Under the pieces are notes generated by a model. That model did no database searches and was not told the origin of the DNA. It saw nothing but the letters and a program-made list of their open reading frames with translations. A program made the position numbers and the translations under genes. Shown here piece after piece: positions 877 to 19,846 of a DNA stretch of 40,812 bases (position 1 is its first letter; every line of letters starts with the position of its first letter). The DNA comes from a virus, in IMG/VR virus record IMGVR_UViG_3300044716_000090, positions 1 through 40,812 of that record. One strand, given 5' to 3'.

Positions 877-1491
877 TTAGCAACCGTATTTACATTTGCC
901 CATAGACTTGCCATAATTAGCTTTAGTTAAACCTACAGCTTTTGTAGCTTTACCCTTGGTGTTCTTACCAATTACATTCTTATAAGAACCTAATTGTGAA
1001 GATACAGTACCACCAGATTTTTTCTTTTCAATCTTCTTCTTTAATTTATCTAAAGAAGGTACTTTATCAAAACTCTTTTTGTCAAGATTTGCACCCATAG
1101 GTCGAGCAGAGCTACCTTTACGAGCTTGCTTATCTAAAGCATTAACCATTTTATCAGCACGTGCATCTCTATCAGCTTTCTTAATCATCTTACCTGGTTT
1201 CATTTCACTAGGAACCATCTTACCAGCTTGAGCTTTCTTAACCTTTAAACCAGACTTACCTTTAGGAGCGTTAGCTGCTGCTGCTTTAGCTGCTTCTTTA
1301 GCTTCTTCACGTTCCATTTTAGCTTTAGCTTTGTCTATTCTACGATCATTACGAGCATATTGTCTAGCAGCTCTATTATTATCACCACCAGAACGACCTT
1401 CTCCAGCAGCTTGTTTAAAAATTCTTAGTCTTGCACCAGATCCAGTGGTAGAAAGACAACCACCTCTTTGGGCTTTTTTAATCTTTGCCAT
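877..1491 (-). CDS. Basic Lys/Ala-rich protein with two KKAQxG motifs
   Basis: A 204-residue, strongly basic protein that starts MAKIKKAQRGG and carries a second copy (VKKAQAG) at residues 84-90. Residues about 45-75 form a charged Ala/Glu/Lys/Arg helix that could be a coiled coil. The rest is Lys/Gly/Ser-rich and probably disordered, ending with a short Cys-containing tail (GKCKYGC). No enzyme domain is visible. The same N-terminal motif begins the proteins at 1513-1932 and 2510-3028, so these are related. A nucleic-acid-binding or internal virion role is inferred from charge and position near the late genes, not shown. Confidence 0.8.
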   Translation of the reverse strand: MAKIKKAQRGGCLSTTGSGARLRIFKQAAGEGRSGGDNNRAARQYARNDRRIDKAKAKMEREEAKEAAKAAAANAPKGKSGLKVKKAQAGKMVPSEMKPGKMIKKADRDARADKMVNALDKQARKGSSARPMGANLDKKSFDKVPSLDKLKKKIEKKKSGGTVSSQLGSYKNVIGKNTKGKATKAVGLTKANYGKSMGKCKYGC

Positions 1492-1512
1492 TTTTATAAG
1501 TTTAAATTGTTA

Positions 1513-1932
1513 TTATTTCTTTTTAGATATTTTACCACCTTTACGCATGCTAGGAGTACGTTTTGCTTCTTTTGCAGCAGCTTTCACTTCACGCTTTTCT
1601 TCACGTGCAGCTTGTCTACTTTGTTTTTTATAATCACGTTCGCTTTGACGAGCATCTTTAGCAGCAGCTCTGCTAATACCACATCTACCACCTTCGCTAG
1701 ATCCCCACTGAGCTTTCTTAAGCTTACCAGATTTCAAAGCACCGATAGTTTTATCTACCACCTTTCTACTAACTGTACGAGGTTTTTTCATTAAATCAGA
1801 TGTAGCTGTAAATTCTTTTTTACCACTAGCATAACCAGCAGTATCAATAGCTACTCTTTGTTTTGGGGTATAGCGACCTTTGGTGCTATATGTAAGGGAA
1901 TCTCCCTTTTGTGCTTTTTTTACCTTTGCCAT
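1513..1932 (-). CDS. Basic KKAQxG-family protein, 139 aa
   Basis: Starts MAKVKKAQKGD and has a second KKAQWG at residues 72-77. After the second copy comes a highly charged Ala/Arg/Glu/Lys helix (about 85-125) like the one in the 204-residue neighbour, then a Lys/Gly tail ending KISKKK. There are no membrane segments or recognised enzyme motifs. The start follows the stop of the upstream gene (1934-1936) by one base, so the two are probably translated together. It is a paralogue of the flanking basic proteins. Function unknown. Confidence 0.8.
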   Translation of the reverse strand: MAKVKKAQKGDSLTYSTKGRYTPKQRVAIDTAGYASGKKEFTATSDLMKKPRTVSRKVVDKTIGALKSGKLKKAQWGSSEGGRCGISRAAAKDARQSERDYKKQSRQAAREEKREVKAAAKEAKRTPSMRKGGKISKKK

Positions 1933-1933
1933 G

Positions 1934-2347
1934 TTAGCATTTCCATTTACGAAGTGATTTATTAATCCTACTATTAGGATCGTTTGCTGTTTTTGAACTT
2001 GTGAGTTTCTTTTTCATACCTGACATCCTAGCACAGAATGATTTCTTTCTAGAACCACCTTCAGGTTGAGGAGCTTTTAAACCAGGCTTACCTGGATTAG
2101 CTCTGTTATATGAGGCTCTTCCTTTAGCGTTTAAACCACCTTCAGGATTCTTACCTTCTTTTCTTTGCCAAGCTGGGCTCACCTTCCCACCACTCTTTAA
2201 TGTGGATCCTTTAAACTCTCCCTTCTTTTTAACAAGAGGACCATTAGGAACAGGAGTGATTTTACCACCAGCTCTAAGAACTCCTTTACCTACATAAGCT
2301 TCTGCTTTCTGTGGGTTATAAACTTTTGTTTTAGGGACTCTAGCCAT
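1934..2347 (-). CDS. Conserved basic phage protein (DUF6321-like)
   Basis: A 137-residue basic protein without the KKAQ motif. Its C-terminal half has a conserved pattern I recognise from many aquatic phage and virus proteins: PAWQRKEGKNPEGGLNAKGR, then a Gly/Pro/Lys stretch, then KSFCARMSGMKKKLTS and a terminal DPNSRINKSLRKW-type block. This resembles the family I recall as DUF6321; the name needs a Pfam search. The biochemical role is not known to me. The conserved Arg, Ser and Cys residues suggest a compact domain rather than a purely disordered basic tail. It sits inside the run of small basic genes. Confidence 0.75.
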   Translation of the reverse strand: MARVPKTKVYNPQKAEAYVGKGVLRAGGKITPVPNGPLVKKKGEFKGSTLKSGGKVSPAWQRKEGKNPEGGLNAKGRASYNRANPGKPGLKAPQPEGGSRKKSFCARMSGMKKKLTSSKTANDPNSRINKSLRKWKC

Positions 2348-2348
2348 A

Positions 2349-2510
2349 TTATTTAGCTTTACGCTTTGCAGCTATTTTCTTAAATGTCTTAGCAAGAGCT
2401 TTAGCCTTACCTGTACAACCAGGTTTGGTGATAGGAGTGCATTTGCCTTCTGTACCTCTAGCCTTAATAGACTTAGACACCTTCTGCATCCACTTTTTAT
2501 CTGTAGCCAT
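2349..2510 (-). CDS. Small basic Cys-containing protein, 53 aa
   Basis: An open frame with ATG at 2508-2510, overlapping the stop of the upstream gene in a TAATG pentamer, and TAA at 2349-2351. It begins MATDKKWMQKVSKSIKARG, then has EGKCTP and GCTGKAKALAKTF, two cysteines about 15 residues apart. The pattern of a Trp near the start, RGTEGKCTP and a C-terminal ALAKTFKK helix recalls short conserved phage proteins seen beside other small basic genes. I cannot name the family with certainty. The Cys pair could bind metal or form a disulfide. Function unknown. Confidence 0.75.
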   Translation of the reverse strand: MATDKKWMQKVSKSIKARGTEGKCTPITKPGCTGKAKALAKTFKKIAAKRKAK

Positions 2511-3028
2511 TATTTTTTCTTTTTCATTTTACCACCAGATTTCATCTTTGTAGCACCTAACTGTTTGTCCTTCTTAAGGCTTACAGGGGTTTTCTTGCCA
2601 GCAAGAGTTTGTTCTTGAACCTTAGTCCAAGCACCTTTAGGATCGATTGGTCCTACACGCTTATTAGAAGCTTTTAATCCAGCTTGAGCTTTCTTAATTT
2701 TAGCACCCTTCTTAGCAATAACACCACGTCCTTTAAGAATGTCAGCTTGTGTAATCTTACCATCCTTGTTTAAATCAGGGAATGATTTACCGTTTTTAGC
2801 TTTAGAGGCTGCTCTAGCTTCTTCCATTGATTTTCTAACTCTAGATCCAGCATCAGGCTCAAGAGAATCATAAAGCTCACTACCACGTTTTTTACGTGTG
2901 GCTCTTAGTTTCATACGTTCTGCTACCTCTTTAGCTCTTTCAGGATTCTTTTCAGATATTCTGCCAAGTCTTTTCTTTTGTCTGCCTGTAATACGATCAC
3001 CAGATTGGGCTTTTTTAACTTTTACCAT
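2510..3028 (-). CDS. Basic KKAQxG protein with an EF-hand/dockerin-type loop
   Basis: A 172-residue basic protein starting MVKVKKAQSGD, with a second IKKAQAG at residues 111-117. Between them, residues 85-96 read DLNKDGKITQAD, which fits the calcium loop pattern DxNxDGxIxxxD of EF-hands and dockerin repeats, here as a single copy. The N-terminal third is an Arg/Lys-rich helix and the end is a Lys run (KMKSGGKMKKKK). It is therefore a nucleic-acid-like basic protein with one probable Ca2+-binding loop. It is related to the 204- and 139-residue neighbours through the KKAQxG motifs. Role unknown. Confidence 0.8.
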   Translation of the reverse strand: MVKVKKAQSGDRITGRQKKRLGRISEKNPERAKEVAERMKLRATRKKRGSELYDSLEPDAGSRVRKSMEEARAASKAKNGKSFPDLNKDGKITQADILKGRGVIAKKGAKIKKAQAGLKASNKRVGPIDPKGAWTKVQEQTLAGKKTPVSLKKDKQLGATKMKSGGKMKKKK

Positions 3029-3617: not shown

Positions 3618-5156
3618 TTAATACTTAAATACCCTTCGTTCCCTCCAAGCTTGATCATAATGTAAGTTACCATACTTATTACCATAAACTATACCAACGT
3701 GATTTCCAAGCTTGTTTATAAATATATTACTCTCAAACTCATCCTGTACAATCCCATTTAGATTTCTTAATATCTTACTTTCTTTATATGTACCAACACT
3801 AATGTCACGATTGTTAAAGTATTTCTTATATCCTTGTTTTATAAATGCTTCACCTAATACTTTTGGACCAACAACACCTAATGGATGATTATCGTATTTG
3901 TTATTTTTAATATTATCTACAGAAATTTGAACAGCTTTATCAACTACACTATCTCCAGCTTTAACACACATAAAAGCATTATATAAATAAGATTTGTTTG
4001 ATGGATCATCTCTTACAAACACTCTATCTACACCTTCTGTTATCTCATCGTATGGTACTAATGGAATCTGTGAGAAGTCTCCATAGCATCCACCATACTG
4101 TTTCAAGATTAAATATCTCCAAAAGTCAGCTTGATAAGCAGTAGGTATTAACTTCTGATGAAGTCTAAAATATTCTTCTCCATAATGATGATGTATAGAT
4201 AACATGCAATCCTCATCAGAAAAATAGAATAACTCATAGCCAGGGTTTTTCTTAAGCATGTCTAAGAAAACATGTTTATATATCTCAGGAAGATCTTCTA
4301 ATTTAAAGGGACCTGTTTTAAATATCCATTTAGGAATACCATCGCCTTCCCATTTTCTGTCCTTTATGTCTTTAAAAGTTTTGATAGTGTTTGGTGAGTT
4401 ATATATTTGTCCTTTTTTCCACAAAATACCATACCTTTCTTGAGTGGTATAGAGTATTTCATAGTGTTTAGGATGTTTTATTTGTACAATATTAACACCT
4501 GGAGCAGATTCAATAAACTGATTAGGAACACGATGATCGTAGATTATAGTATCTTCTCCCACCACTCCTAAAGGAATATCAGCTACATTATTTACTTCTC
4601 TATATACTGTACCAAATACATGTGGACTAGTTACAGATAAGTCAGTTTCAGTATAGATTCTATTAGTAATATTGTATATACATTTTTCTATAGTAGCCTT
4701 TAATAATGGATTATTTTTAGGACTAATTATAAATGCACTATATAGACCTTGCATGCCATTGTAATCTCCTGCTGTATCTTTAGCATACACATAAGTGTAA
4801 TGTTTAATTATATCAGAAAATGGTACAAGAGTTTGCATACTAAAGTCCATATACACACCACCATATACATCCAATATAACATATCTAAATACGTCTGCCT
4901 TGTATGCTTCTGGAATTACTGTATTGTAAGCAAGCAATAACTTGTCGTTATTCTGATCTTCAATAAACTGCAATCTATCTTCTCTAGTGAAGTAGAATAA
5001 TTCGTAATCAGGATTGTTCTCTAATTGCGTATTGTATATGTTGGCTATTTCAGGATGTAGATTTTCCACCGTTTCATTCCCTGTTCTGAATATCCATTTA
5101 GGGGTTTCTGGTTGATCCCAAGTTCTTCCTTTTAAATCTTTGTAAGTTTGTATCAT
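3618..5156 (-). CDS. Tandem GT32-like (DXD-region) glycosyltransferase, two domains
   Basis: A 512-residue cytoplasmic protein made of two copies of the 'glycosyltransferase sugar-binding region containing DXD' fold (GT32/OCH1 type). Domain 1 spans about 15-240, domain 2 about 270-500. Each has PKWIF(R/K)TG at its start, NP.YELFYF, an AY.AD..RY..L..YGG.Y block and a later LGVVG segment. In the canonical family the YGG.Y block runs into DxD, which binds the metal-nucleotide sugar. Here both copies read DFS (104-106 and 360-362), so the second Asp is replaced by Ser in both. It likely transfers sugars to virion or host glycans, and the methyltransferase at 144-695 may act on the same product. 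Donor unknown; activity uncertain given the changed motif. Confidence 0.8.
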   Translation of the reverse strand: MIQTYKDLKGRTWDQPETPKWIFRTGNETVENLHPEIANIYNTQLENNPDYELFYFTREDRLQFIEDQNNDKLLLAYNTVIPEAYKADVFRYVILDVYGGVYMDFSMQTLVPFSDIIKHYTYVYAKDTAGDYNGMQGLYSAFIISPKNNPLLKATIEKCIYNITNRIYTETDLSVTSPHVFGTVYREVNNVADIPLGVVGEDTIIYDHRVPNQFIESAPGVNIVQIKHPKHYEILYTTQERYGILWKKGQIYNSPNTIKTFKDIKDRKWEGDGIPKWIFKTGPFKLEDLPEIYKHVFLDMLKKNPGYELFYFSDEDCMLSIHHHYGEEYFRLHQKLIPTAYQADFWRYLILKQYGGCYGDFSQIPLVPYDEITEGVDRVFVRDDPSNKSYLYNAFMCVKAGDSVVDKAVQISVDNIKNNKYDNHPLGVVGPKVLGEAFIKQGYKKYFNNRDISVGTYKESKILRNLNGIVQDEFESNIFINKLGNHVGIVYGNKYGNLHYDQAWRERRVFKY

Positions 5157-5163
5157 TGTTGGT

Positions 5164-5445
5164 TTATAATGTTATATCAAAGACAATAGTTGCGGAACTC
5201 TTTATACTTTTAGACAGATCTAGATGGATCTGTAAGAGGTTATGAAACTTCAAAATCTCTTCTAGCAACATGTCATTATACATAGGTATAGACGGTGCTA
5301 GTCTAAAGTGATAGGAATTAGGATTCCTAGTAATTTCCAATGTGGCTAACTCATCCACAGAATCTATAATTCCCTGGAGGTGAGCAAAATAAGCAAGTTC
5401 GTTATCTTGCATCACCTCTGGGAAAAATTTCTTGTTAATTTGCAT
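5164..5445 (-). CDS. Conserved hypothetical protein, 93 aa
   Basis: Begins MQINKKFFPEVMQDNE, a pattern close to the first residues of the Dps-like neighbour (KSLFPDEMMKSGE). It then has a helix, a segment FRLAPSIP and a C-terminal ILKFHNLLQIHLDLSKSI. No catalytic motif, signal peptide or membrane segment is seen. Its start overlaps the stop of the Dps-like gene in a TAATG pentamer, so the two are probably produced together and may form a pair. I do not recognise a named family. Confidence 0.75.
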   Translation of the reverse strand: MQINKKFFPEVMQDNELAYFAHLQGIIDSVDELATLEITRNPNSYHFRLAPSIPMYNDMLLEEILKFHNLLQIHLDLSKSIKSSATIVFDITL

Positions 5446-5849
5446 TAAGACAAGGTTAATAAGTATTTAGTTTTTGCTGCTTCTCCAGATAATGCATCTG
5501 CTAGATTTGCTATATCGTGATAGCTGTTTGCTTCAGCATAGCTTTTTAAAGAGGATGCAAAAGATAAAAGCTTTGACACACATTCATCCCCTGTACAATT
5601 TGTAAGAGGTTCTATCTTGTATGGAGCAGGACGCTTACCTGTATATCCCATAAGCTTTTCAATTACACCATCTTTGAAATCCTGTACATAATCGTACAAT
5701 GCTCCTAGAGCTTGATGCTCAGCATAACTCTTTGTCTGCCAATGGGTTAAATGTAATTGCTCATGGAAATGTGTAAGCTTACCAGCTATTGTTTCCAAGT
5801 TTAGTTCCCCTGATTTCATCATTTCGTCAGGGAATAGTGATTTTGCCAT
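5445..5849 (-). CDS. Dps/ferritin-like protein (DUF5856-like)
   Basis: A 134-residue helical protein with a ferritin-type ligand pattern. H36-W37 is followed by H45, then D57, D60 and E64, with H27, H29, E30 and H33 on the preceding helix. The spacing resembles the Dps ferroxidase signature (HW, then H, then DxxAE). It also contains a CTGDEC Cys pair and a final helix (residues 110-130). The sequence resembles the family I recall as DUF5856, found in phages of Bacteroidota. It may protect DNA from iron and peroxide, or serve as a structural ferritin-like fold. It is coupled to the 93-residue gene downstream. Iron binding is inferred from residues only. Confidence 0.75.
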   Translation of the reverse strand: MAKSLFPDEMMKSGELNLETIAGKLTHFHEQLHLTHWQTKSYAEHQALGALYDYVQDFKDGVIEKLMGYTGKRPAPYKIEPLTNCTGDECVSKLLSFASSLKSYAEANSYHDIANLADALSGEAAKTKYLLTLS

Positions 5850-7066: not shown

Positions 7067-8083
7067 TTAATATAATAAATTGTATTTTTCTTTTAGTTCT
7101 ACCAGTTTAGATGCATAATAGTGAGTGCAAAACTTATTACTAATCTCACTATTCATAACCTCTTGTAAATGAGGATCATCTAGAGGATCTTGCCCTGTGT
7201 GATACTTTCCCTTATAGAAAGCAGGATACCCATTGGCTTTATCACCAACAATTCCTGCATTATGTAGGAGTCCCATTCTCTCTAGTTTTTGAATTGGATC
7301 AGAAGACCAAGCAAAATCCATTTCAGGAATAATCTTCGCTTCTTGTTTCCTATACCAAATAGCCCAGAGAACAGCCCACATATCAGCACACCAACTTTGA
7401 AAGCCTTTATCTTCATTCTCAAAGAATTCTCTGTTTATGTTTAGTAAATGTGTTCTAATTACCAAACAATCTTGCAACACCTTATCCCAGAAATCACTAT
7501 CGATGTTCTTTAATAAGTATTGTGCTCCTCCTGAATGTAAATTATTAGCCTCAGCTATCTCTCTAGTTATGCCTGTAAGCTCTGCTGTTTCAGCTAGAAT
7601 GTCTCTAGTCTTGTACAACTCAAGCTTCTCAGGCTTTACATCTCTCACCTTACTATCAAAATATGAAGCGTTGATATAACTGTTTGTATCAGATAGATAG
7701 TTTATATCATCATCCAGATAAGCGTCTACATTGAATTTATCTGTAAACACTACGTCTGAATCACAATACATAACAGCTTTATCCTTCATCCCTGGATTCT
7801 CTGCAAAATATCTTTTCAGACAATAAGGACGTAACACAGGAATATAAACTCCTAACATGTTACTAATCTTGTGCTCATCTTTGTAGAATACAAATTCAGC
7901 TTCTGGATAGAGATCTATCACTTGCTGCCATTTGGTATTCTTTTCCCTATAACTAGGAATGAATATAAGCACAATTGCCTTGTCTGAATGTCCAATTTTC
8001 TTTAAGCTCTCTATCCATAAATGTACCTGCCATGTGTAATAGGTATCATCTGGTTGAGCACAGATAAATCTGAGATCCTTCAT
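7067..8083 (-). CDS. GT-A-type glycosyltransferase
   Basis: A 338-residue protein with the GT-A metal-binding motif CDSDVVF (DxD at residues 108-110) after a hydrophobic strand (KAVMY). A PYCLKRYF segment lies upstream. Downstream are LHSGGAQYLLKN (about 182-193), typical of the acceptor/product side of nucleotide-sugar transferases, and an HNAG segment near 277. No signal peptide or membrane helix is seen, so it acts in the cytoplasm. Unlike the protein at 3618-5156, its DxD is intact. It sits among the adhesin genes, so it may glycosylate fibres or decoration proteins (the Thr-rich linkers are candidate sites); that is inference. Confidence 0.75.
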   Translation of the reverse strand: MKDLRFICAQPDDTYYTWQVHLWIESLKKIGHSDKAIVLIFIPSYREKNTKWQQVIDLYPEAEFVFYKDEHKISNMLGVYIPVLRPYCLKRYFAENPGMKDKAVMYCDSDVVFTDKFNVDAYLDDDINYLSDTNSYINASYFDSKVRDVKPEKLELYKTRDILAETAELTGITREIAEANNLHSGGAQYLLKNIDSDFWDKVLQDCLVIRTHLLNINREFFENEDKGFQSWCADMWAVLWAIWYRKQEAKIIPEMDFAWSSDPIQKLERMGLLHNAGIVGDKANGYPAFYKGKYHTGQDPLDDPHLQEVMNSEISNKFCTHYYASKLVELKEKYNLLY

Positions 8084-9895: not shown

Positions 9896-10849
9896 TTAAT
9901 ATGTTTTATTTAGTATAAATATATCACTGTAAATACTGTTGCTTGTACTAGCAGCACCCCACTGAACAGTGATATCTAATGTATTAGAAATTGTTGTATT
10001 AAAAGTTGTACTATTTACTACGTTAAATGCAAATCCTTGAACAGAAGCATTGTTAGTTTTTGTATAATGGAAACTACCTAATGATACAATAGATGCTACA
10101 CCAGCAGTTCCAAGTTGTCTAATTGTAAAATCAACGTTTAGAGAAAACACATCGTTTGTAACACTACTTCCAAGGTTTTGAGGACCACTATCTAGAAGAA
10201 CAACAGATCCTGCCTTCACTCTAACTCTTATAGTTTGATTATTTGTAGCGTTAATAACACCACCAACAATCGCTCTAAAGCTGTCACCAACATTAAATCC
10301 ATTGGCTGGTACAGATAATGTACCTACACCACCGTTAACCAATGATGTTTCTACTGTTGTGTTAGTAATAATAGTACTGTTGGCTGTTTGAGCAAATAAA
10401 CCAGGCATACCTACTGGACCTTGGATACCTTGTATTCCCTGTATTCCTTGCTCTCCTTGAGGGCCTTGAATACCTTGTGGTCCTGGAGGTCCTTGTAAAT
10501 CACCTACATCTTCCCAAGCATTAGTTGCTGTATTCCAAACATATAAAGAACCATCTGATTCAATTATCCATGCTGTACCTGGAAGTCCAGGATCACCACC
10601 AGCACCTGCTTCAAACGCAGCTAAGTCAGGATAAGAACCAAGTACAGTTAGAGCTGCACCAGTTTCACCCTGAATACCCTGTGGACCTTGTACACCTTGT
10701 GGACCCTGAGGACCAACAGGACCTTGAGGACCTACTGTTCCACCATCAGCAATACTTTCAATAAGGTTATCTAAATTAAGCCAGCCCTCGTAACCATTGC
10801 ATGGGTTACAAAGTTCTCTCCAAAATCCTGGCTTTACGAATGTAGGCAT
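9896..10849 (-). CDS. Collagen-like fibre protein
   Basis: A 317-residue protein. The N-terminus (FVKPGFWRELCNPCNGYEGW) has a Cys pair and is a likely virion-attachment segment. Gly-X-Y repeats run at about 40-64 and 120-150 (GPQGPQGVQGPQ, GIQGIQGIQGPVG), indicating collagen-like triple helices. Between them is a ~55-residue domain (YPDLAAFEAGAGGDPG to WNTATNAWED) common in phage fibres. Residues 155-317 form a beta-rich trimer head (DITVQWGAASTSNSIY). It is likely a trimeric head or tail fibre. It is the first gene after the promoter at 10871-10901 and starts the adhesin operon. Confidence 0.85.
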   Translation of the reverse strand: MPTFVKPGFWRELCNPCNGYEGWLNLDNLIESIADGGTVGPQGPVGPQGPQGVQGPQGIQGETGAALTVLGSYPDLAAFEAGAGGDPGLPGTAWIIESDGSLYVWNTATNAWEDVGDLQGPPGPQGIQGPQGEQGIQGIQGIQGPVGMPGLFAQTANSTIITNTTVETSLVNGGVGTLSVPANGFNVGDSFRAIVGGVINATNNQTIRVRVKAGSVVLLDSGPQNLGSSVTNDVFSLNVDFTIRQLGTAGVASIVSLGSFHYTKTNNASVQGFAFNVVNSTTFNTTISNTLDITVQWGAASTSNSIYSDIFILNKTY

Positions 10850-10956: not shown

Positions 10957-12195
10957 TTATAAATTCACCTTACTTCCCACCACTGCAAAAAACAGTGCAG
11001 GTTGATCAGGAATTGTACTCAAACTTGTTCTTACACCAAGATTCACCTTGAATCTTTTTGTTATAGAATAGTCCACACTAGCACCTGTTAGAAATCCCAT
11101 GTCTTCACTTACTAAGAATTCTTTTTGCTTAGTAGCATAAGTAACTGGGCTTCCAGATATGTACAAGTCTGGGCTAATTGTAATTCTTCTGTTAATAGGG
11201 AAGGGTTTAGTGTAGAACAGTAACAACGAATGTGTTATGTTGTATTGCTTCTTTCCCTCTGCATATTCAGAGTTATTAACACTAATTGTAAGGTTAGCTC
11301 CTGTCACTCCCATTTTACCCATAGGATAGATGTAAGCATATGTTGCAAACCCAAACATGCTACCAAATGCATAAGCAACAGTAACACCATAGTTATTTAA
11401 GCTCTGTAGTTTACCACCATCGAAGTTCATCTTAGTGTATCTACCTGATAGAGCGAATTGTTTTAGATTGCTCCAGACCATTCCTGTAAGTCCCCAAGAC
11501 ATATCACCTGCCATAGAGCTCTGTGATATACCTCCCGTAGCAATAATGTTTACAGATCTGTCTAAACTCTGTCCTCCTGTAAAATCAGAATTGAATAGTA
11601 TAGGGTTAACTCTTGCTTGGGCTCTGCCTCCAGATTTAGAAGAGGACTTACCCCCTCCCCCCTTACTTTCAGATTTGCTTTCTGATTTGGATTCCCCTGA
11701 TGAGCTTTCAGAACTGCTTGATTCTGAGGAACTTGATGAGCTCTCTGAGCTACCACCACTAGAAGAACTGCTGGACGAACCAGTTGCAGAGCTACTAGCT
11801 GCACTAGAGGCAGCACTAGAAGCTGCTGAACTTGCTGCTGAAGAACTAGCTGAGGAAGCAGCTGCAGATGCAGCAGCACTCACTGCAGCAGATACAGCAC
11901 CTGCTGTAACTTGAGTAGCAGTGGCAGCAGTCTGAGCCACAGAGCAAGGAGACAATTTTCTATATTCCTCGTAAACTTGGTTAATCCACGTCTGGAAAAC
12001 CCCAGAACTAACATCAGCAGAAGTAAAAGTCCTATGCTTATTATAAAACACAACAGTAGTGCTGCCAGTGATAGGGATACTAAAAACAGTAACAAGTTTC
12101 GTACAGGGGTCAGTGAATGTCTGGATGATCGTTTGTGAATATCCATATATTGGTAGTATTACTACCACTATTAAAGAAATTATAAACTTCTTCAT
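10957..12195 (-). CDS. Secreted protein with Ser/Ala-rich linker and predicted outer-membrane beta-barrel
   Basis: Residues 1-20 are a clear Sec signal peptide (MKKFIISLIVVVILPIYGYS, then Q). A small Cys-containing domain follows (C31 and C84 could pair), then about 105 low-complexity residues (86-192) that shift from Ala/Ser to Ser/Glu to Ser/Lys/Gly. Residues 193-412 have alternating polar/hydrophobic strands (GDMSWGLTGMVWSN, FALSGRYTKMNF, RRITISPDLYISG, FKVNLGVRTSL) ending ALFFAVVGSKVNL, typical of an outer-membrane beta-barrel with strand-to-strand turns. It is not a normal virion protein. Its start overlaps the stop of the CsgG-like gene. It likely inserts in or displays at the host outer membrane; the role is unknown. 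Confidence 0.7.
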   Translation of the reverse strand: MKKFIISLIVVVILPIYGYSQTIIQTFTDPCTKLVTVFSIPITGSTTVVFYNKHRTFTSADVSSGVFQTWINQVYEEYRKLSPCSVAQTAATATQVTAGAVSAAVSAAASAAASSASSSAASSAASSAASSAASSSATGSSSSSSSGGSSESSSSSSESSSSESSSGESKSESKSESKGGGGKSSSKSGGRAQARVNPILFNSDFTGGQSLDRSVNIIATGGISQSSMAGDMSWGLTGMVWSNLKQFALSGRYTKMNFDGGKLQSLNNYGVTVAYAFGSMFGFATYAYIYPMGKMGVTGANLTISVNNSEYAEGKKQYNITHSLLLFYTKPFPINRRITISPDLYISGSPVTYATKQKEFLVSEDMGFLTGASVDYSITKRFKVNLGVRTSLSTIPDQPALFFAVVGSKVNL

Positions 12196-12911
12196 TACTT
12201 GGTGAAGATTCCTTTTTTAACCATACGGTCCAGGATTCTTGCACAAGCAATATCTAAAGCCTTCTTAGTTGCTATAGAAATAGTGGATTGATTAAACTTA
12301 ACTGGATCCAGGGAAGCATCTGATAGACCACTAGTTTCCTTTGTAGTCTTAGCTTCACCCAGTCCAGAACCAGAGAACACAACACCTGTTTCAGCATCCG
12401 TGAATCTCACTTGCAGTCCTAGCCTTGTAACCATGAGTTGCTTGGTACCATCCTTGAGGCTGATAGATTCATCCTCTGATATAGAATAGTCATAGCACTC
12501 AATAGTAACAAAGTATTTTGCAAGGTTTATTTTACCTCTCCCATCTAATTTGTTTTCAGAGATACCAGCCTGCGAAGCTTGGAATTGCTTTACCATTCTG
12601 TTCTTGATCTCTGTTTTATCTTCTGTGAATTTGAATCTGTTTAGATTCTCTAGGTATTCCATAGATATGTTAGCAACACCTAGCCCAACACGTTTCTCTT
12701 TAAGCTCAGGATAGAGCTCATACATCTCATCATTAATACCACATTTCAATATCTGGATTGGGATTTGAGGTCCATCATAATCCAGGAAGCTCGAAATGTC
12801 TATAGCCTTCTCAAAGCTAGCCTTGTATTGCTCTGTAGAGGTTTTGGCAAGCTGAGCTTGTAACAAATTTATATATAAAAATGTTACAAGAACCAGTAGT
12901 AATCTCTTCAT
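12195..12911 (-). CDS. CsgG-like secreted protein
   Basis: A 238-residue protein with an N-terminal signal peptide (MKRLLLVLVTFLYINLLQAQ). The mature part follows the CsgG/HfaB layout: a GLGVANISMEYLENLNRFKF block, a Gln-rich helix before G (KQFQASQAG), a strand YFVTIECYDYSI, then LGLQVRFTDAETGVVFSG and a C-terminal helix (IATKKALDIACARILDRM). CsgG forms an outer-membrane secretion channel for curli fibres in Bacteroidota and Proteobacteria. Unlike CsgG it has no lipobox Cys, so it may stay periplasmic. It is coupled to the beta-barrel gene, suggesting a joint export or envelope role. Alternative: another periplasmic member of the same fold with no channel activity. Confidence 0.6.
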   Translation of the reverse strand: MKRLLLVLVTFLYINLLQAQLAKTSTEQYKASFEKAIDISSFLDYDGPQIPIQILKCGINDEMYELYPELKEKRVGLGVANISMEYLENLNRFKFTEDKTEIKNRMVKQFQASQAGISENKLDGRGKINLAKYFVTIECYDYSISEDESISLKDGTKQLMVTRLGLQVRFTDAETGVVFSGSGLGEAKTTKETSGLSDASLDPVKFNQSTISIATKKALDIACARILDRMVKKGIFTK

Positions 12912-13126
12912 TTGTTTCTATTTAAATGCTTCGATAATAAAATATAAGACAGAAAAAATGATCCTGAGATACAATAAAAAATAATATCTGCTACCCAGAA
13001 AGAACCTGTAGCGTTCATTATAGTCTTGAATAAAAAGTCGTAACCAAACGGGAGAAAGAACATGGCTAGCATTAAGCTCATGTCTTTCATGTACGTCAGT
13101 CTCTTGAATGTTTTTCTTTTGGTCAT
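12908..13126 (-). CDS. Small two-helix membrane protein, 72 aa
   Basis: Begins MTKRKTFKRLTYMKDMSL and has two hydrophobic segments (about 17-36, MLAMFFLPFGYDFLF; and 42-65, SFWVADIIFYCISGSFFLSY). It ends in TGA overlapping the CsgG-like start (ATGA). A second frame, 12918-13136, is open over the same bases but reads as scattered charged and aromatic residues. This frame is preferred for its clear membrane pattern and stop-start coupling. Short proteins of this kind occur in crAss-like late regions. It could be a holin partner or an inner-membrane helper of the secreted proteins. Confidence 0.65.
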   Translation of the reverse strand: MTKRKTFKRLTYMKDMSLMLAMFFLPFGYDFLFKTIMNATGSFWVADIIFYCISGSFFLSYILLSKHLNRNK

Positions 13127-13150
13127 GAGTATCCATGTTGTTAGATTAAG

Positions 13151-13744
13151 TTAAAAATCTTTGATCTTCCCACAATGGATACATTCATAGTCTCCATCAT
13201 GGTCTACATCAGCAAATACATGCTCACACTGTTTGTGCTCGTGATGTAGGAACTCAAGCTTTTCCATTTCTTGCTCGTGTTCTTGTTGGTCTTTTCTTAA
13301 CTCATATTCTTGTTTATTTTCTACGATAGCCATTTCTGAAGCACGCTCTGCAGCTTTAACAAAAGCATCAGGCACTGTAGGAGCAACTGGTTTGTTACTC
13401 TCTTTCATATCATTTGTATGAGAGAGGGTTGTACCATCTTCCTCATCCATCTTCTGAACAAGCATCTTGTCTTTGTCTGTATCGCTGAACCAATAGTCTA
13501 TAATCTTTCCATAGGAACCAATGAAAGCTCCTAACATTAAGAACAATAACTCTTTCCATTCAGCAGGCATTGTAGCATTGTAATTAACAGCTACAAATAT
13601 ACCACCAATGATAAGCATGAATGATCCAAGCACTAATGCAGTGATGTACCATCTTCTTGCCATCATAGATGCTAAGAGTTCACGAAAGCCTGTAGCTTGT
13701 TGCTGCTTTACTTCTTCAGCTGGTTTTGATTTAAATAAGTCCAT
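13151..13744 (-). CDS. Holin-like membrane protein with Cys/His C-terminal tail
   Basis: A 197-residue protein. Two membrane segments lie at about 32-55 (ITALVLGSFMLIIGGIF) and 63-86 (LLFLMLGAFIGSYGKII), separated by a short loop, a holin-like layout. The C-terminal half (90-170) is a long charged coiled-coil-like helix (ELRKDQQEHEQEMEKLEF). It ends with a Cys/His cluster (CEHVF ... DGDYECIHCG), spaced like a small zinc ribbon. The holin call is inferred from the two helices; the zinc-ribbon tail is unusual for a holin and could bind another protein. It overlaps the 45-residue basic gene upstream by 37 bases. Confidence 0.6.
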   Translation of the reverse strand: MDLFKSKPAEEVKQQQATGFRELLASMMARRWYITALVLGSFMLIIGGIFVAVNYNATMPAEWKELLFLMLGAFIGSYGKIIDYWFSDTDKDKMLVQKMDEEDGTTLSHTNDMKESNKPVAPTVPDAFVKAAERASEMAIVENKQEYELRKDQQEHEQEMEKLEFLHHEHKQCEHVFADVDHDGDYECIHCGKIKDF

Positions 13745-13845
13745 ACGTTTGCTATTACTTGTTGATTTAATTTAATAAGCTCAGCTTTCTTTATACCAGA
13801 TCTTCTAGATCTCTGAGCAGTTGGTTTCTTTTTCTTCTGTGCCAT
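13708..13845 (-). CDS. Small basic protein, 45 aa
   Basis: The ATG at 13843-13845 gives MAQKKKKPTAQRSRRSGIKK, then a helix LIKLNQQVIANVWTYLNQ. A longer frame upstream lies inside the preceding gene, so this start is preferred: it directly follows that gene's stop (13847). The protein has a Lys/Arg-rich N-terminus and an amphipathic C-terminal helix. It overlaps the holin-like gene start by 37 bases. It could associate with membrane or nucleic acid; function unknown. Confidence 0.55.
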   Translation of the reverse strand: MAQKKKKPTAQRSRRSGIKKAELIKLNQQVIANVWTYLNQNQLKK

Positions 13846-13846
13846 A

Positions 13847-14149
13847 TTACCACTTTGGAGCTTCTTCTTTAAACTCATCACCTTCTTTCTTTTTAACTTT
13901 AGGTGCTGGCTGAGCTGCAGGTTTTTCAACCACTCTCTCAATCACCTTAGTTCCACCACTAGCAGATTGTGCTTGGTTAGAATTGGTAATGTTAATTACA
14001 GGAGCAGCAGCTGCTGGGGCAGCTTCTTTCTCATCCCCACCAGTTAGTTTGGTTGTAAACCAACCACCTACACCTAGTGTAACTGTACTAACTAATCCAA
14101 TTAAAATGTTTTTTATAGAGGTGCCTCCTCCTGCTTGTTCTTCTGACAT
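13847..14149 (-). CDS. Single-pass membrane protein with Pro/Lys-rich tail, 100 aa
   Basis: Residues about 10-35 are a hydrophobic, Gly-rich segment (IKNILIGLVSTVTLGVGGWF). The rest is Ala/Pro/Lys-rich and probably extended, ending FKEEAPKW. There is no lipobox or enzyme motif. It could be a spanin-like or scaffold membrane protein. It lies between the small lipoprotein gene and the basic/holin-like pair, within the envelope cassette. Role unknown. Confidence 0.65.
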   Translation of the reverse strand: MSEEQAGGGTSIKNILIGLVSTVTLGVGGWFTTKLTGGDEKEAAPAAAAPVINITNSNQAQSASGGTKVIERVVEKPAAQPAPKVKKKEGDEFKEEAPKW

Positions 14150-14152
14150 ATA

Positions 14153-14530
14153 TTAATGTTTAATAGTTATAGATCTTTTATATTCTTTACCAGAGATGTC
14201 AATTAATTCAAGAGTGTAATCTCCAGTTTTAACATCTGAGTAGTCTAATGTTCTGACAACCAATGTGTTATCAGCTGTAAAGCCTGTAGCTTTTTTAACA
14301 TCTCCACTTAAATCAATTAACCTCAAGGAGTATTTAGCTCCTGGTGTAAGGTTCATTGTTACATCCACCTTATCACTAACTAGTGCTGTGGATAGGTTTA
14401 CAATAGCTGTAGCTGTAGATTCCTTTCCTAGGTTAATTACCTGAGGAGCAGGGATGTCCACCTTTGTACAAGCAATCACTGTAGCAAGTATTAGTATGTA
14501 GAGACCTAGTAATATTCTTAGTTCTTTCAT
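14153..14530 (-). CDS. Small secreted lipoprotein, 125 aa
   Basis: The N-terminus MKELRILLGLYILILATVIAC is a lipoprotein signal peptide with a lipobox ending at C21 (TVIAC). The mature part has a short linker with VINLGKESTATA and then a beta-sandwich-like domain (KYSLRLIDLSGDV, NTLVVRTLDYSD, GDYTLELIDISGKEYKRSI) resembling Ig-like or T9SS-C-terminal-like beta domains, without a sorting-signal tail I can confirm. It would be anchored to the inner or outer membrane, facing the periplasm. Its start overlaps the stop of the cohesin/dockerin gene (TAATG), so the two probably act together. Confidence 0.7.
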   Translation of the reverse strand: MKELRILLGLYILILATVIACTKVDIPAPQVINLGKESTATAIVNLSTALVSDKVDVTMNLTPGAKYSLRLIDLSGDVKKATGFTADNTLVVRTLDYSDVKTGDYTLELIDISGKEYKRSITIKH

Positions 14531-16227
14531 TAGAAATTATTATAGCCTGTTAATTTAATTGTTGTTGTATTTAAGTTTACACCCAGTTGGTTACCCTTGT
14601 TATCTGAGGCATCCAGATTAGATGTAATCTTGATAGCTGAATTGATATCCAATCCACTTTGTAATGTAGAGAATACCAACTTGAAAGGGGTTAAATCCTT
14701 TCCTGTATATGGAGTTTTTAATTCTCTATCAACAGCACCAAACTTAATACGTCCTTCGTGGTTGTTTACAAACACTATCCATGTAGGCATATCAACCTTG
14801 ATAGATTCAAACTTAACCTTCTTTGGATCATATACAAACTCAAACTGCAATGCTGATAGCTCAGCCTTATTTGTATTTACATTCACTGGAATAGTGAACT
14901 CATTACTAGTAAGTGTTAAGTTATTTAAGCTAACATCTATATCAGGAATATTCTGATTAGGTGTATTAACAAATCCTGCAGCAAATGTAGTTACTGTTGG
15001 AGCTTGTGTCCTAACAGATGAATGTGATCTATTGATATCTCCAGGGATTAAATAGCTAATACTTAATGGTCTAGCTACATCACTAGTCTTGAAGTTTATA
15101 GTGTATCTATCTGTTACATTTCTCCAAGAGGTAGCAGATAGGGTGTCATATGTACCACTTAAGAAAGCAGGAACATTCCATAATGTCTGTCCTTGTTGTG
15201 CTTTAAATATTGTGTCAGCTCCTACAGCCTGTGCAAATAGTCCTGTAACATCTCCACCATCAAACGCTCTATTATTATTAATATCAGCTGCTAGAAATCC
15301 AATACCAGAAGCAATGTTGCTATTGCTGAATGTACCATTTAGATTTTGTTTTACAAACTCAGACATAGCAGCTGTGTAATCACTCACTGTAATTGCTCTA
15401 TTCAATATAGCTGGAATGCTATCTGATATAACATTTACTAAAATCTTATAAGCTGTGTTAGGGCTTAGCTCACTACCAAGAGTGAATGTACCATTAGCAG
15501 CTGGAGTGACAGTAGCTCTAACTACATTTGTAGCTGAGTCAACAAACACTATCCTAGGTTGATATCCAGTTGTTAGATTGCTATTTAGTTTCACCTCACC
15601 ATTAACAAGTGCATTAGCCACTGGTGTAAGTCCTATCCAAGCTGAGTTAGGTTTAGGCATTCTTACATCATGAAAGGTTCCTCCATAGTTACCACTGAAT
15701 GCTTGAGCAAAGTTGTAATAAACAGAGTCATATGCAAATCCTGCAGCCACCTGCTCCACTCTAAATCTGATGTTACATAATGTACCATCTATTAGGTCAG
15801 CACTTGATACAGCCCATATACGATTGATAGCTCTACCACTAGTCTGACTATAACCATAACTAGCGTTGTTTGAGTTTTGTTGTCCAGATTCTGTTGTATT
15901 CTGTGCAGTTCTGTTTAAGAAGTATCCAGGATAGTATTGATTCTGATAAGATGTTTGTGCTCCCTGAGGAACAGCATTACCAAATGTAAGATCTATCATA
16001 TTGATAGCTGTAATCTGGTGTTGAAAGTCTAGGTAGAAAGAACGTACAGGTTTACCTGCAGCTGCTTTATACACTAAAGACACTTGTACAGTGTCACCTT
16101 TTTTGATAGCCCCACCGTTAATGTTGGTACCAGCAACATTAGGAATTAGCCTCAATTCAGGATTTTGTCCATAAGAAGTTGTCACAATTATTGTAAAAAG
16201 TGTGACAAAAAATAATAGTTTATTCAT
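14530..16227 (-). CDS. Secreted cohesin/dockerin-like scaffold protein
   Basis: A 565-residue protein with a signal peptide (residues 1-20, cleaved near SYG-Q). Residues about 25-195 form a beta-rich cohesin-like domain (IKKGDTVQVSLVYKA). About 208-275 is a CarboxypepD_reg-like beta domain (VNGEVKLNSN, AANGTFTLG). About 281-336 plus 396-400 resemble a dockerin pair (AADINNNRAFDGGDV and IPGDINRSHSS). About 428-562 is a second cohesin-like domain (EFTIPVNVNTNKAELSALQF, RIKFGAVD). Cohesin-dockerin pairs build extracellular scaffolds. No Cys lipobox and no enzyme motif are seen. It is coupled to the lipoprotein (14153-14530) and follows the 214-residue protein. A phage gene of this type is unusual; the role is unknown. 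Confidence 0.7.
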   Translation of the reverse strand: MNKLLFFVTLFTIIVTTSYGQNPELRLIPNVAGTNINGGAIKKGDTVQVSLVYKAAAGKPVRSFYLDFQHQITAINMIDLTFGNAVPQGAQTSYQNQYYPGYFLNRTAQNTTESGQQNSNNASYGYSQTSGRAINRIWAVSSADLIDGTLCNIRFRVEQVAAGFAYDSVYYNFAQAFSGNYGGTFHDVRMPKPNSAWIGLTPVANALVNGEVKLNSNLTTGYQPRIVFVDSATNVVRATVTPAANGTFTLGSELSPNTAYKILVNVISDSIPAILNRAITVSDYTAAMSEFVKQNLNGTFSNSNIASGIGFLAADINNNRAFDGGDVTGLFAQAVGADTIFKAQQGQTLWNVPAFLSGTYDTLSATSWRNVTDRYTINFKTSDVARPLSISYLIPGDINRSHSSVRTQAPTVTTFAAGFVNTPNQNIPDIDVSLNNLTLTSNEFTIPVNVNTNKAELSALQFEFVYDPKKVKFESIKVDMPTWIVFVNNHEGRIKFGAVDRELKTPYTGKDLTPFKLVFSTLQSGLDINSAIKITSNLDASDNKGNQLGVNLNTTTIKLTGYNNF

Positions 16228-16871
16228 TATAATAGCTTGTTTACCAATGAGTTAGACGCTTTCTTTAAAGCTGAACTTAAATTCTGTTGGTTAAACTTGC
16301 CACCTTCATCTATTAATAATGTGGACATACTTGTTTCAGCCGCAGACTCCTCTGCAAAAGCTTTTTTAATAACTTTACCATCTTTAACTAATGTACCATA
16401 TAGTCTAATGACTACTGATTCTTTTTCTTTATGGAATACAGACACCTGTGAACTGTTTTTTAACACATCCAAATATACGATGTCTGCTGTAATTTGCAAA
16501 CTAGCTGATGGGTCAATGGCATAATCCATATCCTGTAACACTTCTTCTATAACATTCTTAACACCAAACTCCAGGTTACGGTTACCAGCAAGAGCACCTA
16601 TCTTCACTTTGTTAGTGATAGCACCAATGCTGATTTTGTTAGACTGTTCATAGTAGATGTTACCTGGACTATTCTTAAATCTGCCATCAAACTTCCATGT
16701 AAGTTGATTGACTATGTTTTGAATCTTCTCATGCTGGTTTGTAAACTCCAGATATAAGAAAAACAACTGTGCACTTAACGCACAGAAAATGAATATCAGA
16801 ACACCATAGAGAAAAAACAAAAATAGTTTCTGCCCTATGTATGTTCCGATGCTTGATAGTTTTGCCCTCAT
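16227..16871 (-). CDS. Membrane-anchored periplasmic protein (YajG/CsgG-like fold suggested)
   Basis: Residues about 15-37 are one membrane helix (LFLFFLYGVLIFIFCALSAQLF), placing the rest in the periplasm. The C-terminal region has a strand-helix pattern (ASLQITADIVYLDVLK, ESVVIRLYGTLVKDGKV) and ends with a helix (LSSALKKASNSLVNKLL), recalling the YajG/CsgG-like alpha-beta fold of envelope lipoproteins. No catalytic motif is visible. Its stop overlaps the start of the cohesin/dockerin gene (TAATG). It appears to be the first gene of the envelope cassette and could be an inner-membrane anchor for it. Confidence 0.65.
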   Translation of the reverse strand: MRAKLSSIGTYIGQKLFLFFLYGVLIFIFCALSAQLFFLYLEFTNQHEKIQNIVNQLTWKFDGRFKNSPGNIYYEQSNKISIGAITNKVKIGALAGNRNLEFGVKNVIEEVLQDMDYAIDPSASLQITADIVYLDVLKNSSQVSVFHKEKESVVIRLYGTLVKDGKVIKKAFAEESAAETSMSTLLIDEGGKFNQQNLSSALKKASNSLVNKLL

Positions 16872-17024: not shown

Positions 17025-17642
17025 TTAAACTAATAATGAATGATATTCTTTGAAGTGCTTGATACGATCTGCAAGACCAATAGTACCACCGTTTACACGC
17101 TTAGTAATCTTAGTCACAACAGCATCAGAAACACCTTCATCTGCTATTTTATTTAAACCATTCTTGCTCCAGAACCAAGCTGCAGATAACAATACATACT
17201 GTGTACCAACTAAGTTAGGATCTGCATCAGGTCCTAAACCAATTGATTTAAAGAATGCTGTGTAGTTATCTTTACCAGTTAACTGGATTGCTCCTCTTCC
17301 ACGGAACTTAAAACCATCTCCTGATGATTCAGGACCATTACCCATACGTCCACCATATACAAGATTAGCAATCTTCTCAGGCTTCTTAGCATAAGCAGCT
17401 GCCTTAGGTTCATCAATTGTTTTATCAGGTCTTGTAAAATACTTCTTGAAAATACCTGTAAGTCCTTTAGCAGAATAGTTTAGGTTTTCATTAAAAACTC
17501 TAAATCCACCACTCTCATGTCCTGTTTGTGCAAGGAAATGAGCAAGTCTTGTTGGAGTGTTTATTTGAAACTTCTCCATCACCTCAGGTATCTTTTCTAA
17601 TATACTATCAGGAATATGTCCTTTTAACTTATTTAGATTCAT
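17025..17642 (-). CDS. GH19-type endolysin
   Basis: A 205-residue protein of the glycoside-hydrolase-19 type used by many phages to cut peptidoglycan. Key pattern: AHFLAQTGHESGGF with catalytic-acid candidate E43, NENLNYSAKGL with second-Glu candidate E52 (nine residues later, as in phage GH19 enzymes), and GRGAIQLTGKDNY (about 114-126) in the substrate groove. No signal peptide is seen, so export needs a holin. Neighbours upstream are spanin-like and holin-like genes. Its start overlaps the end of the 50-residue gene. Length matches single-domain phage GH19 endolysins. Confidence 0.9.
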   Translation of the reverse strand: MNLNKLKGHIPDSILEKIPEVMEKFQINTPTRLAHFLAQTGHESGGFRVFNENLNYSAKGLTGIFKKYFTRPDKTIDEPKAAAYAKKPEKIANLVYGGRMGNGPESSGDGFKFRGRGAIQLTGKDNYTAFFKSIGLGPDADPNLVGTQYVLLSAAWFWSKNGLNKIADEGVSDAVVTKITKRVNGGTIGLADRIKHFKEYHSLLV

Positions 17643-18970: not shown

Positions 18971-19846
18971 TTACGCTTTCAGGGAAGCAATTATTTTGTC
19001 AACGTTGAAGATTTCATCTTCATTATTATAAGGAAACTCTAATAGGTTTCCTAAGATGTCGAACTTCTGAAAATATGCACTACGAAGTTCAGGCTTTTTT
19101 GTATGTGGGTTGGCTAAAATATTCTTATGAATATCATAACCAAATACTGTAGGAGTGTTAGCTATCCATAATACAGTGGAAGGTTTGTTTAAACCAGCTG
19201 CTGCATGTTGTCCGAAGCTATCCATAAATAATCTCTTCTCACTTAATTCTGTTAGTACAGCTAAAGCTCTGAAGTTTTCTGTTACTGTTATTGTTCCAGG
19301 GAAAGATGTTTGATCTTCTCTTCTCATGTGAACAATGTTATAGTCTTTTTTAAATTCCTCTATAACACTTGATACAATATTGGCTGGAATATCCCTAGCC
19401 CATGAGTATTTAAGTTCTTGTCCTGGGCCACCACCATTGGTTTGCATTAGTAATATAGGCTTATCAGATGTAAACTTAGCACTAAAGAACTGACGTTCTC
19501 TGCCAGTTAAATAGATTTGTGGCTTCACACTCTCAGGAGCAGGTAAACCATATATCCTAGCCCATGTATGACTAAGATGTTCATCTTGTTTAATATAGTG
19601 TGTATCTACATAAGGATCGTGTGCAAGAACAACGAACTCCTTATTTTCTATATAATCTTGATAAAAGTAACCAGTTTGACCAAAGGCAAATGATCTATGA
19701 ACATATGGGTTGTTTAAGAACACCTCAGGATATCCACTAACCACAATTAGTTGATCATCAGGGTATTGGTGATGTATCACCTGACAAATTGATGTAGCAA
19801 GGATGCATTTACCAATACCCCCATTGATCTGGAAAATAATGTTCAT
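18971..19846 (-). CDS. GT9-like glycosyltransferase (heptosyltransferase type)
   Basis: A 291-residue GT-B-type protein. It starts MNIIFQINGGIGKCILATSI, the GT9 nucleotide-sugar-binding start (GG.GD/K....), followed by PDDQLIVVSGYPEVF. The C-terminal half has RLFMDSFGQHAAAGLNKPS, the GT9 acceptor/donor loop pattern (D...HAAA.LGKP in heptosyltransferases). No signal peptide is seen. In bacteria this family adds heptose or other sugars to LPS cores. In a phage it may alter host LPS or glycosylate virion proteins. It lies just upstream of the lysis genes. Confidence 0.7.
   Translation of the reverse strand: MNIIFQINGGIGKCILATSICQVIHHQYPDDQLIVVSGYPEVFLNNPYVHRSFAFGQTGYFYQDYIENKEFVVLAHDPYVDTHYIKQDEHLSHTWARIYGLPAPESVKPQIYLTGRERQFFSAKFTSDKPILLMQTNGGGPGQELKYSWARDIPANIVSSVIEEFKKDYNIVHMRREDQTSFPGTITVTENFRALAVLTELSEKRLFMDSFGQHAAAGLNKPSTVLWIANTPTVFGYDIHKNILANPHTKKPELRSAYFQKFDILGNLLEFPYNNEDEIFNVDKIIASLKA

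Follow-up and report, generated by a model that had tools for sequence, protein, structure and literature searches.

About six genes form an obligate conserved unit in hundreds of Bacteroidota viruses. We studied this unit in a window of 40,812 bases, which covers positions 1 to 40,812 of a 111,328-base virus record, and in the relatives of its proteins (Table 1). The reading that we favor, with about even confidence, is that the unit is a dedicated export-and-anchor module that displays adhesin-like proteins on the infected Bacteroidota cell and remodels its outer surface. The module as a whole appears to be new, matching no described system in the open-licence literature; its folds and its sorting domain are already known, and there are separate earlier reports of phage-encoded CsgG and of type IX secretion system (T9SS) cargo. 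Two parts of the module hint that the host's own machinery for surface secretion is captured, and the retention of more than 50% identity in the core protein across crAss-like, Immutovirus, and very large phages indicates an important task in Bacteroidota phages. The module provides a testable way into phage control of the host surface, and it is accessible at the bench because an isolated pair, Flavobacterium sp. LMO8 and immuto, carries it.

Table 1. Genes of the module and its close neighbors in the window
Feature	Position	Strand	Description	Evidence
BARREL	10957..12195	-	signal peptide, 2-Cys beta domain, helix, linker, 12-stranded barrel	AF2, Foldseek
CsgG-like	12195..12911	-	secreted protein; most conserved gene of the module	AF2, Foldseek
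72-aa protein	12908..13126	-	small membrane protein, accessory; 35/81 first-scan loci	
TM197	13151..13744	-	two membrane segments, C-terminal zinc-ribbon-like Cys motif in tail	alignment
TM100	13847..14149	-	single membrane segment, Pro/Ala/Gln-rich tail, invariant C-terminal Trp	alignment
LP125	14153..14530	-	lipoprotein, T9SS sorting-domain-like Ig fold	lipobox VIAC, hhalign
COH	14530..16227	-	secreted; N-terminal beta domain, dockerin-like loops, C-terminal cohesin domain	Pfam
YajG-like	16227..16871	-	N-terminal membrane anchor and periplasmic CsgG/YajG-superfamily domain	Pfam, hhalign
Endolysin	17025..17642	-	GH19 type, frequent neighbor	phrog_181 E 4e-68, PF00182 E 1.7e-7

A first-pass annotation had proposed an envelope cassette made of the BARREL, CsgG-like, LP125, COH, and YajG-like reading frames. 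Their coordinates proved exact, all five lie on the minus strand, and the stop-start overlaps described there are present as TAATG at 16227, 14530, and 12195; the cassette also takes in TM100 and TM197, which were absent from that list of parts. The export signals were found where they had been read, with hydrophobic signal-like N termini in BARREL (ending in GYSQ), the CsgG-like protein (LLQAQ), COH (SYGQ), and LP125 (the lipobox) and an N-terminal membrane segment in the YajG-like protein. By a crude hydrophobicity rule, not a trained predictor, a signal-like N terminus is kept in 143 of 148 CsgG-like, 261 of 281 cohesin, 121 of 124 YajG-like, 110 of 157 barrel, and 67 of 69 LP125 relatives. 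Export of the module proteins is well supported at the level of predicted signals. Sec signals, a lipobox, and an outer-membrane barrel are a poor fit to cytoplasmic assembly, which argues for the proposed action in the host envelope and not in the virion.

Some 240 loci came from three scans seeded with the CsgG-like protein, all on viral contigs, the longest of 434 kb; scanning genomes added one contig, from a Bacteroidota metagenome-assembled genome (MAG). Locus counts take in near-duplicate contigs unless distinct proteins are stated; a set of 92 loci represents distinct CsgG-like proteins with full flanks. The YajG-like, cohesin, and barrel genes each occur in all 92 of these loci and TM100 in 90; these genes share one strand throughout, and only a few gene orders recur. 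TM197 occurs in 68 of the loci. Searches in the reverse direction found a CsgG-like gene in 63 of 63 loci when seeded with TM100 and in 42 of 48 when seeded with the YajG-like protein. The YajG-seeded loci that lack it mostly have two cohesin genes, so the CsgG-like gene may fall beyond the flank examined. The cassette genes of the window are common to 35 to 81 of the first 81 loci. The neighborhood search therefore upholds the cassette as a unit, obligate, larger, and far more conserved than could be seen from the window.

The carriers of the module include crAss-like phages, Immutovirus, and phages of 250 to 434 kb. The terminase of the window itself matches those of crAss-like and Cellulophaga phages, its best named relatives being Leptolyngbya phage Lbo-JY46 (40%) and Cellulophaga phages phi17:2 and phi4:1 (32%). 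Just 3 of the 15 records with the module have a crAss-type terminase, so the module crosses phage lineages. Among 297 Bacteroidota genomes, a single one has the CsgG-like gene, and that one is the MAG mentioned above (L087). Immutovirus immuto is the only named phage searched that has the gene; its module corresponds to gp014 to gp019, annotated as hypothetical except for "cohesin domain." The cohesin and YajG-like proteins of the window had no match in the named-phage search. One module-bearing contig of 97 kb (L346) has an IMG number, 2603880160, that looks like that of a genome rather than a metagenome, a possible link to a host.

The CsgG-like protein has 483 relatives in IMG/VR and is about 51 to 62% identical to members outside the window's lineage and at least 79% identical to those inside it. 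Its CsgG-like fold, suggested in the first-pass annotation, was recovered by structure prediction: for an AF2 model built from 55 relatives (pLDDT 77), all top Foldseek matches in the PDB were E. coli CsgG, the first being 4uv2 (E 5e-7, prob 1.00), with modest TM-scores of 0.40 to 0.49. Pfam CsgG (PF03783) has no match in the 111-kb record at E 10, and among the 55 family members it matches one, at E 0.01, below the cut-off. The window copy has no lipobox, its signal (LLQAQ) being without a Cys at that place. Judged from the model, the protein would be related to CsgG at the level of the fold only. The two membrane-spanning hairpins that build the CsgG pore have spacings of 32 and 48 residues in the E. 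coli protein; the spacings here are 29 and 40, and the first region is more charged. A 10-residue gap at this place in an hhalign alignment to a CsgG set had at first hinted that the hairpins are missing, which the landmark spacing did not confirm, so that the protein may or may not form a membrane pore of its own.

The neighboring YajG-like protein had been described as a membrane-anchored periplasmic protein; the anchor was found, and the domain can be refined to a predicted second member of the CsgG/YajG superfamily. Pfam YajG (PF03923) recognizes 19 of the 64 relatives, with E 2.2e-6 at best, the window protein itself reaching E 0.075. Comparison of the CsgG-like and YajG-like families by hhalign, which was uninformative with shallow alignments and clear with deeper ones, gave 97.5% (E 6e-12), and on this profile evidence we regard the two proteins as homologous. 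The gene-finding profiles of the two families cross-match, and genes were assigned by the better score. A PDB sequence search with both families returned chance matches only. We also considered TraT, a surface exclusion lipoprotein that forms an outer-membrane ring blocking a second element (PMC11733297); its link to the YajG-like protein is marginal, and we claim no relationship, with Pfam TraT matching 2 of 64 relatives (best E 0.0016).

The third envelope component, proposed in the first-pass annotation as an outer-membrane beta-barrel, was modeled by AF2 (mean pLDDT 74). In the model, a small N-terminal beta domain with two Cys residues is followed by a long helix and then by a linker, Ser-rich and disordered, which leads into 12 strands that span residues 199 to 411 and reach the C terminus. 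Its best Foldseek matches in the PDB are NanC (E 2.4e-8) and the amyloid exporter FapF (E 1e-7), in agreement with a barrel. The combination of a periplasmic protein that lacks a membrane span with a separate outer-membrane barrel porin is reminiscent of class 3 OPX proteins, whose fold and cargo are different, so that the likeness is one of analogy only (PMC9603273). Among the small membrane proteins, all 222 TM100 proteins end in the terminal Trp, preceded by an acidic/lysine-rich tail, and this C terminus looks like a recognition motif. In relatives of TM197, the two membrane segments are followed by DEDGDG repeats that resemble calcium loops and by a zinc-ribbon-like Cys tail, features that are odd for a holin.

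The candidate displayed product is COH. The cohesin domain that had been read in it is called by PF00963 at residues 443 to 557 (E 4.5e-7, 30.6 bits against a cut-off of 24.1). The dockerin that had been read alongside it was borne out only in part: DINNN and DINRS loops are present at residues 315 and 397, but the window protein itself draws no dockerin call. Outside the window's lineage, the COH of most loci ends in a T9SS sorting domain (CTD); examples are immuto gp15 and the cohesin protein of L087, both with a type A domain at the C terminus (44.8 and 30.9 bits, respectively; cut-off, 23). The L087 contig, which is of this type, was binned in a MAG that encodes SprA, the T9SS translocon. 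In the window's lineage, COH lacks the sorting domain, neither TIGR04183 nor PF18962 being found in the window COH, and the adjacent LP125, of related fold, is present instead. The first-pass annotation had taken LP125 for a lipoprotein partner; its lipobox is evident, and it can be refined to a relative of the sorting domain. The LP125 of the window scores 13.9 bits with TIGR04183/PF18962, below the cut-off of 23; the mature domain aligns to the full CTD by hhalign (95%, E 2.5e-8), and the CTD HMM matches 16 LP125 relatives (best E 2.5e-5).

Across 239 loci, 154 have only the CTD, 72 have only LP125, and none has both. From these sequence relationships, LP125 appears to replace the sorting domain that COH carries elsewhere. 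A quick tree of the CsgG-like proteins places at least two switches between the arrangements, one of them (L041/L081) within the window-type clade, where the window-type gene order occurs with a sorting domain and without LP125. The mutual exclusion is therefore mostly lineage structure (two switches), not many independent events. An apparent co-occurrence of CTD and LP125 in a second locus set was discarded, as the sorting-domain model was matching LP125 itself.

We favor a model in which the module proteins are made in the cytoplasm and most of them, according to their sequences, exit via Sec. As synteny and folds suggest, the CsgG-like and YajG-like proteins would probably assemble into a ring in the periplasm, either below the outer-membrane barrel or joined to it, and TM100 and TM197 in the inner membrane may connect to this complex. 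COH would be the displayed product, which in many phages could be transferred to the surface and anchored there by the host T9SS through its sorting domain; in the window's lineage, the mutual exclusion suggests that LP125 does the anchoring. The cohesin may in turn be a docking site for partner proteins that have dockerin-like or lectin domains. The likeliest benefit, and the weakest step of the model, is that the displayed layer might block adsorption of competing phages, as a form of superinfection exclusion, or alter adhesion of the infected cell. A superinfection block was among the possible roles offered in the first-pass annotation, beside an outer-membrane change ahead of lysis and the building of a surface structure. 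The display model draws on the obligate co-occurrence on one strand, the N-terminal signals, the CsgG fold, the barrel, the CsgG/YajG homology, the cohesin, dockerin, lectin, and CTD domains, the exclusion between CTD and LP125, SprA in the MAG, the near absence from Bacteroidota genomes, and the sharing of the module by crAss-like and unrelated phages. Counting against it are the modest Foldseek TM-scores, the endolysin and holin-like neighbors, which also fit lysis, the lineage structure behind the CTD and LP125 exclusion, and the absence of a sorting domain from the window COH, which bears on outer-membrane crossing. We hold only tentatively, and rather doubt, the fullest version of the model: an undescribed virus-encoded outer-membrane machine (CsgG-fold ring, barrel, and inner-membrane link), present in unrelated Bacteroidota phages, that would load the cohesin protein onto the host T9SS, or substitute a lipoprotein anchor of its own, so that infected cells are coated and rivals kept out.

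T9SS sorting domains on phage proteins, expected to use host secretion, are known from Cryophage and from BACON-bearing gut phages, which encode T9SS cargo proteins (PMC7468147, PMC6949934), and superinfection exclusion has been suggested for the Cryophage cargo (PMC7468147). Those cargo genes lack a fixed module, whereas the cargo described here is part of a fixed set of genes that also supplies envelope proteins, and its sorting domain is exchangeable for a separate lipoprotein.

The explanation that ranks second, and that we consider unlikely, is that the module is a lysis accessory, in which the CsgG-like, YajG-like, and barrel proteins would weaken or open the outer membrane late in infection together with the endolysin and holin-like proteins. 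A GH19 endolysin, which is probably outside the module core, lies within 10 kb in 67 of the 92 loci, on the same strand in 54; by eye, TM197 and the small membrane proteins look like holins, and a role in lysis has been proposed for the CsgGF pores of phage Melnitz (PMC9004378). However, TM197 matches only PHROGs of unknown function, with no holin assignment, and no part in lysis is known for cohesin, lectin, or T9SS sorting domains. The immuto module adjoins replication and nucleotide-metabolism genes, with the endolysin about 6 kb away, and it is this separation that places a purely lytic role second to display.

We place lower still a curli-like (type VIII) or Fap-like secretion system, in which a CsgG-like ring and a FapF-like barrel would export a fiber that coats or clumps cells ("sibling capture"). 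Curli-pore genes for CsgG and CsgF are known in pelagimyophages and in Methylophilales phage Melnitz (PMC7029224, PMC9004378), and lysis or sibling capture has been proposed for such pores (PMC9004378, PMC7029224). Our module resembles these in being a small phage operon that encodes a protein of the CsgG fold and in which no curlin was identified. Unlike them, it occurs in Bacteroidota phages, lacks CsgF, is similar to CsgG at the fold level only, and has a 12-stranded barrel as a protein of its own, another CsgG/YajG-type protein, and cohesin and T9SS parts. The barrel and its preceding helical periplasmic region are like those of FapF, which is among the top matches, but this likeness is by fold only, and NanC/KdgM barrels match as well. 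A Pfam scan of ten cassette proteins found no curlin, CsgE, CsgF, or Fap family, and the silence of Pfam CsgG and the missing lipobox in the window protein also speak against a curli system, of which the module is not a member.

A nutritional or adhesive role, in which displayed cohesin, lectin, and dockerin proteins would bind polysaccharides or particles and hold the infected cell near food or hosts, seems to us quite improbable. Among 44 sampled COH family proteins, Pfam found a cohesin domain in 28, a CTD in 20, a C-type lectin domain in 12, and weak Dockerin_1 matches in 5 (best E 2.2e-4), and laminin-G-like domains likewise occur; these partner domains would suit binding, but the 44 proteins have no catalytic domain, and such a role leaves unexplained why conservation is by far the strongest in the periplasmic CsgG-like protein. 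The arrangement recalls the cellulosome in that a cohesin is borne on one exported protein and dockerin-like repeats on others at the same locus. It differs in having no cellulase or scaffoldin series, and with weak dockerin calls the cohesin pairing is putative.

Lectin-like folds are known in tail proteins and the cassette adjoins tail-fiber genes in the window, but we regard virion proteins of an adsorption complex or decoration with incidental Sec-like N termini as very improbable, given the misfit of the export features with cytoplasmic assembly, the restriction of the flanking fiber genes to 0 to 4 of the first 81 loci, and the presence of the module in phages without a crAss-type terminase.

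The window terminase, portal, and capsid proteins match head-and-packaging PHROGs. A collagen-like protein with GPQGPQG repeats (9896-10849) adjoins the cassette. A 512-aa protein (3618-5156; phrog_28262) apparently contains a glycosyltransferase-like domain twice in tandem, and the products of 7067-8083 (phrog_4417) and 18971-19846 have a glycosyltransferase look by eye. A Dps-like protein is encoded at 5445-5849 (phrog_858, E 5e-15), and four small Lys-rich proteins lie in tandem at 877-3028, several of them with common KKAQ-G and SGGK motifs.
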